Shown here: one piece after another, positions 9,096-58,827 of the stretch
Position numbering within the stretch: the first letter of the stretch is position 1
Layout of the letters: each line of letters begins with the position of its first letter
From: Exiguobacterium sp. s122
GTDB lineage: Bacteria; Bacillota; Bacilli; Exiguobacteriales; Exiguobacteriaceae
Assembly (NCBI RefSeq): GCF_018618475.1
Contig: NZ_JACSMD010000001.1
Span: 62,001-126,000 of the forward strand
Length of the DNA stretch: 64,000 nucleotides
Direction: 5' to 3'
Made by a program: the position numbers and the translations under genes
The notes under the pieces: generated by a model
The model's database searches: none
Told to the model about the DNA's origin: nothing
Seen by the model: only the letters and a program-made list of their open reading frames with translations

Positions 9096-9944
9096 ATGAA
9101 GTTGATTGCCATCGACCTCGACGGGACACTTTTGTCTCGGACCGGGGTCATCACAGAAGCAAACCAAAAGCTGATTCGACAGCGACAAGCACAAGGGGAC
9201 ATCGTCGCCATCTCGTCAGGGCGTTCGATTCATGACATTGAAGAAATTTTGAAGCGGAGCGGTTTGACGTGTCCCATCCTTTCAGGGAATGGGGCCATCG
9301 CCTTTTATGAGAACGAACGAATCTATTACTATGCGCTCCCAAAACAAGTCGTGAGCGAATTGTGGGAGGTAGCGCATGAATATGATACGTATGTCGAGTT
9401 TTATACAAACGCGGGTGTGAAAGTATTACGTTCCGGAACGGAGTTGTTGAAACGAGAACTCGATGACGTCTTACCCCACGATCAGTCGTTTACTCGCGAG
9501 TGGGGAGAGCGAGAAATCGAGATTCAAAACGAGCAGTACGGGTTGACATATGTCGATGAGGTGAGTGAGATTGATTTTGAGGCTGATGAAGTCTACAAGG
9601 TGTTCATCTATTCATTTGATCGACAAAAACTTCAAAAATTACGAAAACATTATGAGTCACGCACCGACATATTGATTACAACGGCAGGCTGGACAAAAAT
9701 TGAGATTGGACACCCGAGAGCGAGTAAAGGAATGGCGCTCGAACAGTTGGCGCAGCATCACGGCATCGCCAAAGAACATATCGTGGCGATTGGAGACAAT
9801 TTGAACGACGTCTCGATGTTTGAAGTGGCCGAGACGCGCATTGCGATGGGCAACGCGGTCGATGCGCTAAAAGACATGAGTACGCACATCACAAAAGACG
9901 CCGAAGAAGACGGCGTCGCGTATGCGCTCGAGCACTATATTTGA
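9096..9944 (+). CDS. Cof-type HAD-IIB sugar phosphatase
   Basis: 282 residues. Motif I is DLDGT with nucleophile D7 and D9, motif II is AISSGRS near 35-45, and the C-terminal GDNLNDVSMFEVA near 230 carries the magnesium aspartates. The size and the large C2 cap are those of Cof/YwpJ-like phosphatases acting on small phosphorylated metabolites. GGGAGGAAACG precedes the ATG. It is monocistronic. Confidence 0.9.
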   Translation: MKLIAIDLDGTLLSRTGVITEANQKLIRQRQAQGDIVAISSGRSIHDIEEILKRSGLTCPILSGNGAIAFYENERIYYYALPKQVVSELWEVAHEYDTYVEFYTNAGVKVLRSGTELLKRELDDVLPHDQSFTREWGEREIEIQNEQYGLTYVDEVSEIDFEADEVYKVFIYSFDRQKLQKLRKHYESRTDILITTAGWTKIEIGHPRASKGMALEQLAQHHGIAKEHIVAIGDNLNDVSMFEVAETRIAMGNAVDALKDMSTHITKDAEEDGVAYALEHYI

Positions 9945-10044
9945 AGGATTTGGAGAAATGGTGAACACGGATTCGAAGCTTTCAAAAACGGCTATTGTAT
10001 TACTGTAGTCCTCGTTCATCAAGGAAGTTGGAAGGGGACGACAG

Positions 10045-10194
10045 ATGAATCATCGCTTGAGACGTTTGACTAAGTGTGAACCGGTCAAACGACAGCCTGT
10101 TTGGACAACCGGTCATCAAACCGTTCCCTTTCACTACCTGTCGCCGACCTTACGCGATGTGAGGCGCAGACGAAAAGGATTCTTGGGAACATGA
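10045..10194 (+). CDS. Possible small basic protein, 49 residues
   Basis: An ATG with GGAAGGGG about 8 nt upstream opens a 49-codon frame rich in arginine (RRLTK, RDVRRRRKG). It has no signal peptide or membrane segment. Its stop overlaps the start of another frame that looks non-coding. It lies inside the candidate structured RNA region, so it may be a real peptide, a leader peptide, or chance. I do not recognise it. Confidence 0.25.
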   Translation: MNHRLRRLTKCEPVKRQPVWTTGHQTVPFHYLSPTLRDVRRRRKGFLGT

Positions 10195-10450
10195 GTCGGA
10201 TGGTCGGAATGTTTCCTCAGGCGGAGGTGGGCCGGATGGGATTCGTGACAGATTTCGTTCATATAGGTCGAACTTACGATTGTTTGGCAACCGGAAGCCA
10301 TGCTTCTGTATGTGCCGCATCGTCAGAAAGACGAACGATTGCTCGGAAATCGTGGCATGAATCGCATCACTTTCTAGCACGACGTTACACATATGGGACG
10401 GTCGATCATGAGATCGGGTGCAAGTCCAACCGACTAGAGACGCTCACCGT

Positions 10451-10475
10451 AAGCGCCACGATTGTGGCGCTTTTT
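10451..10475 (+). terminator. Intrinsic terminator ending the 10-kb unassigned transcript
   Basis: AGCGCCAC-GATT-GTGGCGCT followed by TTTT on the plus strand; the minus-strand side lacks a T-run, so it mainly serves rightward transcription from the unassigned region. Confidence 0.8.
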
Positions 10476-10807
10476 CATTGTGCGAACGTTGAGACACGTG
10501 ACGGGGAAGCACCAGCCGCCGCTTTATACTCGATGCGGTGACCGTCGACCGCCTTTGTCACGCGGAACGAGTAGTCGGCGTCCGGTTCGTCGCGGAATGT
10601 GACATCGTAGACGTACCCGCTAAAGCCGAGTGCTCCATCGAGGGAATAGGTCTGTTCCGGAATGTTATAATGAGTGGCAAGGTATGATTCCAAAGCGTGT
10701 TCACGTTCTTTGATTTCTGCGTCATAACGTACGTATAAAAAAGCAACGAGGGCGATGGTGACGAATAAAGTAGAACGGACAAGGGTGTTCCAATTACGAC
10801 GTGGCAT
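10475..10807 (-). CDS. DUF3139-like small membrane-anchored protein
   Basis: 110 residues: one N-terminal membrane helix (about 10-27) and a short extracytoplasmic domain with HALESYLATHYNI and VYDVTFRDEPDADYSF, the pattern of DUF3139 proteins of Bacilli. Function unknown. A GAAAGGAGACTCACCG ribosome binding site precedes the ATG. Confidence 0.65.
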   Translation of the reverse strand: MPRRNWNTLVRSTLFVTIALVAFLYVRYDAEIKEREHALESYLATHYNIPEQTYSLDGALGFSGYVYDVTFRDEPDADYSFRVTKAVDGHRIEYKAAAGASPSRVSTFAQ

Positions 10808-11058: not shown

Positions 11059-11076
11059 GCCGGCGTCGTTTGTTTT
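11045..11076. terminator. Bidirectional terminator between the 53-residue protein and the ABC-F gene
   Basis: AACGACGCCG and CGGCGTCGTT arms with a 6-nt loop; TTTGTTTT follows on the plus strand and AAAAA-complement T-run on the minus strand. Confidence 0.85.
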
Positions 11077-12919
11077 ACATCAATTCGAGTAATTCCAATA
11101 CTAACGAATCGATTTCGGATTGAAGCGCATCGCTTTGTTGCTGCAACGTCATCAATCGTTCCAAGTCGTTCGTCTCACTCATTTCAAGGATGAGTGACTG
11201 ATGGAGTGCCTCGAGCTCGGCTAAGCGTACTTCTTCATGAGAAGTATCTTTTGAGCTTGGCGCCACTCTTTGCTTTGACGTGGCTTTTTGTTTCGGGATC
11301 GGAGTCGCCGTCTCCATTGCCTCGCGTCGCTTCTCGAGTGCGTACGAGACGTTTCCAGAAAAACGCGTCGTCGTTCCGTCGAGCCAATACGTGATCGGGA
11401 ACAGTTTATTCAAGAAATAGCGGTCATGCGATACCGCGACGAGTGTCCCGTTGAAACGGTCGAGCGCCTCTTCGAGGGCCTCACGTGCTTCGATATCCAG
11501 ATGGTTCGTCGGTTCGTCGAGGACGAGGACGTTCATCTCTTCATGCATCAGGATGGCGAGCATGAGCCGCATCTTTTCCCCGCCACTCAAATCCTTGACC
11601 GGTTTGAATACGCTCGCGCCGTAGAAGAGGAATTGGGCGAGGAGTTGTCGCGCTTTGCCTTCGTCGACTGGAATCCGGTCCCGAAACGCCTCGATGAGCC
11701 GATGGGCGTGATCAAAATCGATGTGTTGGGACAAATAACCGATTTTAGACCGTTCGGCTCGCCGGACTTCGCCGGAAGTCGGTTCGATGTGGCCGAGCAA
11801 TACGTTCAAGAGCGTGGACTTCCCACTCCCGTTCGGACCGACGATGGCAATCCGTTCCCTGTGCCCTGCATAGAAGGAGACGTGCTCGAAGACGGTTCGG
11901 TCGAAACGGACGGACACATCAGTCGCTTCGAAAACGTCGCGGCCAGTCCGGCCATGTGCTGTGAACTGGATGTCAGGTTGAATGGATTCGAGTTGCGGTC
12001 GCTTGATCGTCTCGATTCGGGCGAGCGCTTTTTCCATCGACTTGGCCCGCCGGTAAAACTTCTCGTTCGGTGGATGTCCTTCGTTCGCCCACTGTCTGAG
12101 CTGACGAATCGTTTCTTTCATCTTCTTGATTTTCTTTTGTTGCTCCGTGTAGGCATGGAACTGGTCAAGGAGCCGCTTTTCTTTTTGGGCGACGAAGGCG
12201 CTATAATTGCCGTCAAAGCTTGCCAGCTCACCGTCTTCACATTCCACGATGCGGGTGGCGACGGCGTCTAAAAACACACGATCGTGCGAGACGAGGAGGA
12301 GTGTGGACGGACTGTCTGAAAGAAACGTCTCGAGCCAAGCCATCGCTTCGAGGTCGAGGTGGTTCGTCGGCTCGTCTAAGATGAGCAGGTCTGGCTCTTG
12401 AAGCAAGGCCAGAGCTAATCCGATTTTCGTCCGTTCCCCTCCGCTAAGCGTATCGAATGGCCGGTCGACGAAACGGTCCAGTCTGAGCCCGTCAATCATC
12501 GCGTTCACTTTCGAATCGATGGTATAGCCGCCGTTGTTCTCGAAACGGGTCTGGAGTGCACCGTATGTCTCGAGGAGCGTCTCAATGTCGGTTCGTTCGG
12601 CCATCGCCTCTTCAAGTCGTCGCATCTCATTGCCGAGCGTCACGAGCTCGGAAAACGCCGTATAGAGCACGTCTCGACCGGTCTTGTCGGGATGGGACGG
12701 GATTTGAGCCAAATAGCCAATCATCAACCGCTGTTTCCGGTAAATCGTCCCGCCATCTGGTGTTTCAGTGCCGACGATGAGCCGGAGAAGCGTCGTTTTG
12801 CCGCTCCCGTTTCGTCCGACGAGCCCAATCCGTTCACCCGCATTCACGTGAAGGTTGGCGTCGGTCAAGACGGCATGGCCGCCATATTGCTTTTGGATAT
12901 TTTGTAATTCGATTAACAT
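11075..12919 (-). CDS. ABC-F family ATPase (ribosome-associated)
   Basis: 614 residues with two soluble ATPase domains and no membrane segment. Domain 1 has Walker A GRNGSGKT at 35-42, signature LSGGERTKIGLAL and Walker B LLILDEPTNHLD; domain 2 has GPNGSGKST near 360, LSGGEKMRLMLAI and VLVLDEPTNHLD. A charged linker (about 240-300) joins them and a C-terminal coiled coil ends the protein. ABC-F proteins act on the ribosomal E site, either to relieve stalling or to displace antibiotics. Length resembles YdiF/YfmR, but the attenuator-like leader with an upstream peptide is more typical of antibiotic-inducible members. Which of these it is cannot be decided here. Confidence 0.9.
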   Translation of the reverse strand: MLIELQNIQKQYGGHAVLTDANLHVNAGERIGLVGRNGSGKTTLLRLIVGTETPDGGTIYRKQRLMIGYLAQIPSHPDKTGRDVLYTAFSELVTLGNEMRRLEEAMAERTDIETLLETYGALQTRFENNGGYTIDSKVNAMIDGLRLDRFVDRPFDTLSGGERTKIGLALALLQEPDLLILDEPTNHLDLEAMAWLETFLSDSPSTLLLVSHDRVFLDAVATRIVECEDGELASFDGNYSAFVAQKEKRLLDQFHAYTEQQKKIKKMKETIRQLRQWANEGHPPNEKFYRRAKSMEKALARIETIKRPQLESIQPDIQFTAHGRTGRDVFEATDVSVRFDRTVFEHVSFYAGHRERIAIVGPNGSGKSTLLNVLLGHIEPTSGEVRRAERSKIGYLSQHIDFDHAHRLIEAFRDRIPVDEGKARQLLAQFLFYGASVFKPVKDLSGGEKMRLMLAILMHEEMNVLVLDEPTNHLDIEAREALEEALDRFNGTLVAVSHDRYFLNKLFPITYWLDGTTTRFSGNVSYALEKRREAMETATPIPKQKATSKQRVAPSSKDTSHEEVRLAELEALHQSLILEMSETNDLERLMTLQQQSDALQSEIDSLVLELLELM

Positions 12920-58282: not shown

Positions 58283-58559
58283 ATTGAAACGAACAAAGGC
58301 GTTGACGAAGAGAAGTAACGACAGGCCCCGCATGACAGAGAGCTGATGGTTGGTGTGAATCAGTATGTGGGACGTCGCGAATGGACTTCCGAGCTCTAAA
58401 CCGAAACTTTGAGTAGGCTTTAGCGGGTGACCCACCGTTATCACGGGGAAGCGGATGATCGTCCGTGAAGTGGGTTCTACGGAACCAACGAAGGTGGCAC
58501 CACGGGGTTACTCGTCCTTCTCATAGCGTAAGCTATGGGTAGGCGAGTAACCCTTTTTT
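58283..58559 (+). ncRNA. Tryptophan T-box leader 1
   Basis: Stem I carries the AGTA-type motif (GAAGAGAAGTAACGACA) and a specifier loop GCGAATGGAC with codon UGG at 58382-58384. The T-box core AACGAAGGTGGCACCACGG lies near 58487-58505; its UGGC bulge complements the GCCA end of tRNA-Trp. The terminator GGGTTACTCG/CGAGTAACCC (58505-58553) with an inner CATAGC-GTAA-GCTATG hairpin and T6 follows. Uncharged tRNA-Trp would stop termination. Confidence 0.92.
58505..58559 (+). terminator. Regulated terminator of T-box 1
   Basis: GGGTTACTCG / CGAGTAACCC closing a long hairpin with a GTAA-loop inner stem, then TTTTTT. Confidence 0.85.
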
Positions 58560-58569
58560 CGTTTCACAT

Positions 58570-58827
58570 AGAAAATCGATGATTGAGAAGAGTAGCATGG
58601 AGCAGTCTCGTCCAGAGAGTCAGGGGTGGTGAGATCCTGACCGAGACCTTTATGCGAATGGGCTCATGAGAGCACGGCCGAATGCAGTAGGTCGTGACGG
58701 TTTCCCCCGTTATCGGGATACGATGTGATTGCATCGGAAAAAGCGGGATCTTATGCATGATCCAACGAGAGGTGGCACCGCGGTCCATACCGTCCTCCAT
58801 ACGACAGACGTCGTATGGAGTTTTTTT
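58570..58827 (+). ncRNA. Tryptophan T-box leader 2
   Basis: A second complete T-box directly follows the first. Stem I (GATTGAGAAGAGTAGCATGG) has specifier GCGAATGGGC with UGG at 58659-58661; the core AACGAGAGGTGGCACCGCGG is at 58764-58783, again with a UGGC bulge; terminator CTCCATACGAC-AGAC-GTCGTATGGAG with T7 is at 58795-58827. Two T-boxes in series give a steeper response to tryptophan starvation. Confidence 0.92.
58795..58827 (+). terminator. Regulated terminator of T-box 2
   Basis: CTCCATACGA-type 11-bp arms, 4-nt loop, TTTTTTT; ends 29 nt before the trpD start. Confidence 0.88.

Follow-up and report, generated by a model that had tools for sequence, protein, structure and literature searches.

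The closest published parallels to the RNA element described here appear to be OLE RNA, by size and type of host, and the so-called Soda Lake RNA, a large covarying RNA of a single genus. OLE RNA is described in the cited passages as a structured non-coding RNA of about 600 nt from Bacillota with highly conserved stretches (PMC9723947, PMC12054373). Soda Lake RNA (smtA motif, HRC-65-1) is longer than 350 nt, folds into a complex covarying structure and has been found in one genus, Thioalkalivibrio; according to the cited part of the report it lies beside a metabolic gene, upstream of smtA, in a Gram-negative host, and its function is unknown (PMC11109978). The raiA motif RNA, or ModT, is presented in the passage cited as a structured and conserved non-coding RNA of Bacillota occurring in more than 2,500 species (PMC11706538), and GOLLD and ROOL are there introduced as large ornate bacterial RNAs (PMC12286853).

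The element analyzed here lies in the genome of Exiguobacterium sp. s122, within a window of 64,000 nucleotides that was analyzed as a whole. It is similar to OLE RNA in its size class, in its Gram-positive Bacillota host and in its highly conserved stretches, however no OLE covariance match was found at the locus and its distribution is far narrower. With Soda Lake RNA, as far as the two can be compared by description, it shares the large size, the covariation, the restriction to a single genus and the position beside a metabolic gene, although it is located downstream of a HAD gene and not upstream of smtA in a Gram-negative host. Like raiA motif RNA it is structured, conserved and non-coding in Bacillota; that RNA differs in its reported wide occurrence, and the window holds no gathering-level Rfam match besides two T-boxes. 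GOLLD and ROOL, as introduced in their source, are likewise large bacterial RNAs, but for the element no Rfam match was obtained, and no copy among the phage records searched with blastn or the viral contigs searched with the exact 5' motif. The partner gene of OLE RNA is oapA. The element is flanked by a Cof-type HAD gene and by a convergent frame of 110 codons that has no Pfam or NCBIfam match.

A preliminary description, made from the letters of the sequence alone, had pointed to about 530 nt without a convincing gene at this place. This was borne out: judged from the window sequence and its open reading frames, the gap between the HAD stop at 9944 and the 3' end of the convergent frame at 10475 holds no convincing gene. 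The conserved block of this genome starts five bases 3' of the HAD stop codon. On comparison with its relatives, in alignments of 12 rows (A2) and 7 rows (A7), the element is a conserved structured RNA on the plus strand that ends in a predicted intrinsic terminator (Table 1). The convergent frame has a relative at the same place in one type-1 genome (G007, L077), and in a type-2 genome (G009, L076) no frame of 80 aa or more was present there.

Table 1. Position of the element, its parts and its neighbours within the window.
Feature	Position	Strand	Basis or remark
Cof-type HAD-IIB hydrolase (PF08282, TIGR00099)	9096-9944	+	family profile matches
Proposed RNA gene, ~530 nt, structured, conserved	9949-10476	+	alignments, folding; from just past the HAD stop codon to the T run at the terminator
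5' block, most conserved sequence	9949-10007	+	alignments, pair probabilities, pattern scan
Hairpin P3, GTCCTC...GGGGAC	10008-10039	+	predicted fold; hides Shine-Dalgarno-like AAGGGG
49-codon frame, judged not a conserved gene	10045-10194	+	start, stops, substitution ratios
Hairpin P5, GTTTGAC...GTCAAAC	10064-10090	+	first hairpin of the preliminary description
Hairpin GTTTGGAC-AACCG-GTCATCAAAC	10099-10121	+	second hairpin of the preliminary description; species-level feature only
Hairpin P11, TGTCGCCGACC...GAGGCGCAGACG	10139-10172	+	
Long-range helix, 5' strand GGTGGGC	10226-10232	+	pairs with 10442-10448
Long arm P13, GATGGGATTC...GAATCGCATC	10235-10368	+	
3' module common to both types	10371-10440	+	TTTCTAG/CTAGAGA around GGAC-GG / NTGNAA-GTCC, plus upper stem
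Long-range helix, 3' strand GCTCACC	10442-10448	+	pairs with 10226-10232
Intrinsic terminator stem-loop	10451-10472	+	AGCGCCAC/GTGGCGCT then T's
Convergent 110-codon frame	10475-10807	-	membrane- or secretion-like start (by eye)
ABC-F ribosomal-protection-like gene	11075-12919	-	NF000355, 461.8 bits vs cut-off 380
Tandem T-box leaders	58293-58522 and 58570-58800		134.2 and 135.7 bits

We determined the distribution of the element by BLAST and with covariance models. BLAST detected it in 12 of 19 Exiguobacterium genomes, on which two covariance models were trained, one for the 5' and one for the 3' domain. The 3'-domain model gave a single match at E<=0.001 in every one of the 19 genomes, with E-values of 4.9e-7 to 1.2e-5 in the seven genomes outside the training set. 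The 5' model reached 15 of the 19. It matched in three of the seven divergent genomes, with E-values between 9.4e-7 and 9.5e-4 and some 0.4 kb 5' of the match to the 3' model, and by alignment the 5' block stands at the expected place in all seven. Carriers include Exiguobacterium aurantiacum, alkaliphilum, profundum, aestuarii, chiriqhucha and others. A third model, built from all 19 genomes and run over 398 genomes of the class, recovered these 19, its own training rows, at E<=4.4e-14, whereas none of the 379 other genomes scored below E=0.048; twelve matches outside the genus had E-values of 0.048-0.099. The class-wide search used strict filters with 10 candidates scored per genome and may miss distant relatives. 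Presence in 19 of 19 genomes of the genus and in none of those searched outside it makes the family genus-wide and, at this search sensitivity, genus-restricted.

Neither the 5' model nor the first 3' model gave a match at E<=0.001 in any of 19 genomes of the sister genus. Weak 3'-domain matches in four of them (E 0.07-0.61), as well as one extra match in G014, were rejected as other sequences having no GTGAAC upstream. Those in L071 (1002-1082), L072 and L073 fall in conserved intergenic sequence that we take to resemble a reverse-strand riboswitch leader. A pattern scan with the 5' motif returned 17 loci, 14 of them from Exiguobacterium; the other three (Allomuricauda, an Actinomycetota MAG and a Bacteroidales MAG) were discarded as lacking the 3' domain. 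A second weak BLAST match in the same genome, C1:1592580-1592625 (E 7.3e-4, 46 bases), is not a copy. No match was found in plasmids, in 50,697 phage records searched with blastn, in viral contigs searched with the exact 5' motif or in E. coli genomes searched with megablast, and a mobile or phage origin was rejected on the plasmid, phage and viral results. Among the matches listed for Exiguobacterium and noncoding RNA in open-licence papers without their supplements, no description of the element was present.

The relatives fall into two subtypes: type 1 comprises 12 genomes including the present one, type 2 the remaining seven. The minimum free energy of the single sequence is -180.1; shuffled versions average -165.5 (z -2.26), two out of 100 reaching as low a value. 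This modest difference is insufficient by itself; the alignment-based z-scores suffice. The RNAalifold consensus energy was -221.6 for the 12 rows of type 1 against a column-shuffle mean of -155.5 (z -8.95), and -254.0 for the 7 rows of type 2 against -185.6 (z -10.0), with 60 column shuffles each that kept conservation and gaps and with columns of more than 50% gaps removed. On the minus strand the consensus fold was weaker, with z-scores of -6.6 for type 1 and -7.3 for type 2, which points to the plus strand. In type 1 the count of pairs changed on both sides does not distinguish between the strands: the consensus fold contains 28 on the plus strand, a number that the best of 60 shuffles also reached, and 27 on the minus strand against a shuffle maximum of 22.

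We also counted compensatory changes in the structures as named here. In the type-1 structure 25 of 152 pairs were changed on both sides against a shuffled mean of 14.5, in the type-2 structure 22 of 171 against 6.2; the pair types of the type-1 structure were ordinary (57 of 500 shuffles as high). When the partners were shifted by one to three columns, pairing fell from 93-95% to 38-47%, a control that leans toward the structures because they were derived from the same alignments. A home-made tree-aware test, in which substitutions were replayed and each pair was judged separately, was significant for 0 of 152 pairs of type 1 and 3 of 171 pairs of type 2, as well as for 0 of 23 and 0 of 20 pairs; one of the three significant pairs (299-416) changes to a non-pair and is no true compensation. 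This test was conservative here, since fewer column pairs passed than expected, and we read its outcome as a lack of power with 7-19 close relatives and not as support of R-scape grade. Covariation of the whole structure exceeds that of the shuffles on most measures. The locus thus carries a conserved, covarying multi-stem fold without coding, the per-pair test being underpowered and mostly negative. Comparative folding, which the preliminary description had proposed as a check, confirmed its observation of a structured RNA, the alignment-based z-scores being the chief support.

Both subtypes share the 5' block, the 3' module and the terminator, and differ in the middle. The 5' block has the consensus TGGAGAAATSGTGAACNNGGRTT, followed by 12 variable bases and RAAYGGNTANTGTW. 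Single rows depart from the consensus in the first box, and the number of spacer bases is constant in 19 of 19 rows. Of the 98 columns of the 5' domain 33 are invariant in 19 rows. The block is weakly folded in type 1, where its main helix reaches a mean pair probability of 0.18; type-2 helices touching it reach 0.41-0.89. The weak folding in type 1 suggests that the block may be a binding or tertiary segment, or in part a DNA control element. A search for long-range partners, with columns of more than 20% gaps removed, yielded many options of 5-7 bp, none of them backed by clear covariation.

The outer helix of the 3' module reads TTTCTAG/CTAGAAA, in type 2 TCTCTAG/CTAGAGA, and encloses the GGAC/GTCC helix with GG opposite NTGNAA (NTGAGA in G003 alone). 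In a structure drawn by hand, 96.7% of cells were paired over 19 rows, 17 of them distinct. The covariation score of the module was 0.245 against 0.183 for the shuffled alignments, with 0 of 500 shuffles as high. Its three pairs changed on both sides are ordinary (350 of 500 shuffles as high) because few columns vary, and its pair types are ordinary as well (380 of 500); in the alignment used (A8) the rows G015 and G008 are off by one base in helix 1, which lowers the count.

The preliminary description had also placed a strong plus-strand terminator at the end of the element, and visual inspection shows a terminator-like hairpin at the corresponding position of every one of the 19 aligned relatives. 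Three of its eight pairs are changed on both sides, each in one row, G018. In this genome (L004, 40-127) the terminator appears by eye to be re-made as AAGCGCCCCC...GGGTGGGGGTTT, the whole stem being swapped and the hairpin retained. The other 11 type-1 rows all keep AAGCGCCAC.

Of the individual helices, P3 shows a mean pair probability of 0.98 in type 1 with 96.2% of cells paired and no change on both sides; the region is different in type 2. P5 is paired in 94.2% of cells over 12 rows and contains one pair changed on both sides. This hairpin and the one following it had been read as duplicated units sharing a direct repeat, a reading that does not extend to the family: by eye the second hairpin is recognizable in only two of the 12 type-1 rows, G000 and G004, with a T-A pair replaced by C-G in the latter. 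The repeat ACCGGTCA at 10080 and 10108 is at chance level, four 8-mer repeats being present against a shuffled mean of 2.15, a count reached by 20.7% of mononucleotide shuffles. In P11 four of 14 pairs are changed on both sides (98.2% of cells paired) and in the long arm P13 five of 19 (96.5%). Type 2 has a long arm at the place corresponding to P13, with 4 of 25 pairs changed on both sides. The long-range helix has a mean probability of 0.99 and 97.6% of cells paired over the 12 type-1 rows without changes on both sides, and it is not predicted in type 2. We further observed that TGGTGA of the 5' block (9959-9964) can pair with TCACCG (10444-10449) in 12 of 12 type-1 rows; this pairing was not listed for type 2. 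As it competes with GGTGGGC/GCTCACC, the two may constitute a possible conformational switch in type 1 only.

We next consider how the RNA could arise. A HAD ortholog lies directly upstream of the element in 19 of 19 genomes, and in all of them GTGAAC of the 5' block stands 14-20 nt past the HAD stop. On the plus strand between 8900 and 10900 no sigma-70-type site matched in 9 of 12 positions. Synonymous variability of the HAD gene is even, with 0.36 in codons 261-280 and 0.28-0.38 elsewhere (per 20 codons), and does not drop toward the 3' end. With neither a 9-of-12 promoter nor a synonymous drop toward the end of HAD, read-through from this gene is the most economical source; the element would most simply be the end of the HAD transcript, an own promoter being possible too. 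Three other genomes of the class encode HAD proteins with 46-49% identity, and the 2.5 kb inspected in each case contained no such RNA. The ABC-F gene follows the locus in all three genomes read, both subtypes among them, and since this gene stays adjacent as well, adjacency of HAD is weak evidence of functional coupling.

The comparative data make it highly probable that the element is a real functional structured RNA. As the best explanation overall we favor, with moderate confidence, a genus-restricted large non-coding RNA that would be trimmed from the HAD transcript and work as an RNA; an autonomous role in trans seems slightly more probable than its absence. Under this explanation the structured RNA, about 530 nt long, is present in single copy and inherited vertically. 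RNA polymerase would continue past the HAD gene into the element and stop at the terminator, and the HAD message would be trimmed or cleaved near the HAD stop to release the folded RNA. The released RNA would most likely be a stable ribonucleoprotein scaffold or a regulatory RNA acting away from its own message, in which the 3' module and the 5' block may be the working parts and the middle a replaceable frame. The length, the conserved stretches outside firm helices, the two subtypes with a common core and the presence in 19 of 19 genomes would fit such an autonomous RNA released from the HAD message, be it a ribonucleoprotein scaffold, a regulator or a ribozyme. A bolder version, to which we give a rather low probability, would see here a previously undescribed class of large 'ornate' RNA that occurs throughout one genus, derives from the end of a phosphatase transcript and functions autonomously, either in a ribonucleoprotein or as a catalyst. 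Its two subtypes would have retained the 3' module and the 5' block in common, with a rebuilt middle.

Alternatively the element could be a cis-acting 3' UTR of the HAD mRNA, its fold guarding the message against 3' exonucleases or tuning the HAD level and acting on this message only. The short distance of GTGAAC to the HAD stop, the lack of a strong promoter between the two, and the common strand with one terminator are all consistent with this. However, a stability element should by its size need far less than 530 nt, as we infer, the long conserved stretches with the invariant columns of the 5' domain in 19 rows argue for more than stability, and HAD homologs elsewhere do without the element, so that we consider a purely cis-acting role unlikely. 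Similarly improbable in our view is an own promoter, inside HAD or in the 5' block, in the latter case with a transcript that could start near 10005. Such a promoter would bear on where the transcript originates and is compatible with an autonomous function. The constant spacer between the two boxes of the 5' block and the poor folding of the block in type 1 would agree with a promoter. So would weak 8-of-12 sites among the best four per genome. In at least 10 of 19 genomes such a site lies inside HAD, about 266-270 nt ahead of GTGAAC, and in four type-2 genomes one lies 15 nt ahead of this box. Against it stand the missing 9-of-12 match, the number of sites near the element (2 vs 2.3 expected in all) and the even synonymous variability of HAD.

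The preliminary description had further noted a 49-codon basic frame with a ribosome site and had considered a dual-function RNA that also encodes this short peptide. The frame exists, and a Shine-Dalgarno-like sequence with ATG is present in 12 of 12 type-1 rows, but conserved coding was not found: the start is absent in 7 of 7 type-2 rows, and the stops wander in the 12 type-1 rows, giving lengths of 16, 16, 16, 21, 27, 28, 28, 28, 39, 39, 49 and 80 codons. Synonymous to non-synonymous pairwise codon differences were 62:309 in frame vs 53:355 and 51:315 in the other frames; the synonymous share is slightly highest in the frame at 10045, the difference being small. The peptide-like conserved part coincides with hairpin P5. 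A dual-function RNA is therefore very unlikely. A 16-codon frame in the 5' block was also rejected, with 6 synonymous to 363 non-synonymous differences, stops, and absence or early stops in type 2. When starts present in 90% or more of the rows are considered, the longest frame common to all spans 16 codons for type 1 and 27 codons for type 2, and the two lie at different positions. The type-2 start, at column 258, is conserved in all 7 rows and opens a frame of 27-38 codons; among the best five frames per strand type 1 offers no counterpart.

We also compared the locus with known RNA families. At gathering thresholds Rfam 15 matched the whole window only in two T-boxes located elsewhere than the element. 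The genes behind these tandem leaders presumably form a trpD-trpC-trpF-trpB run; the interval from the leaders to the trpD-like gene contains no trpE-like frame of at least 150 aa. At E<=10 five Rfam matches fall inside 9900-10520, none near its gathering score, the best being a microRNA model with 24.3 bits vs 57.3. A twister-sister ribozyme was rejected at 15.7 bits vs 34; its GCAAG letters are confined to G000, and GAAAG, GGAAG or GAGAG is present in each of the remaining 18 rows. RNase P RNA (RF00011), tmRNA (RF00023, ARAGORN) and 6S RNA (RF00013) are absent at the locus and have copies at C1:1223693 (311 bits), C1:700348 (190.9 bits) and C1:1781866 (77.5 bits), respectively. SRP RNA families gave no match at the locus at E<=10, nor did OLE RNA (RF01071) in 9900-10520, and the OLE model matched in 0 of 19 genus genomes, a search that also gave nothing in its control genomes. 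The earlier statements that the RNA belongs to no assigned family, that it shows no hallmarks of RNase P RNA, tmRNA or SRP RNA, and that rnpB and ssrA should be sought elsewhere in the genome agree with these searches. In spite of the OLE-like size and host, it is thus most improbable that the element is a highly divergent representative of one of the known large families (OLE, RNase P, tmRNA, ROOL, GOLLD), as no family comes near gathering at E<=10, RNase P RNA, tmRNA and 6S RNA each reside elsewhere, and OLE was found in none of the 19 genomes, though its controls were empty too.

The reading as a large non-coding RNA without assigned family, with which the preliminary description had ended, is supported by the occurrence in 19 of 19 genus genomes, fold and covariation above shuffles, the stronger fold of the plus strand, the terminator and the missing Rfam match. 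Few large structured bacterial RNAs of unknown function have been described, and any well-supported addition may be a source of new RNA chemistry or ribonucleoprotein biology. Exiguobacterium grows in the laboratory, and the family offers a ready model with 19 species, a fixed address and two subtypes that reveal its unchangeable parts. The element suggests that a genus-wide RNA of half a kilobase can escape Rfam, perhaps because its distribution is too narrow for broad comparative pipelines.
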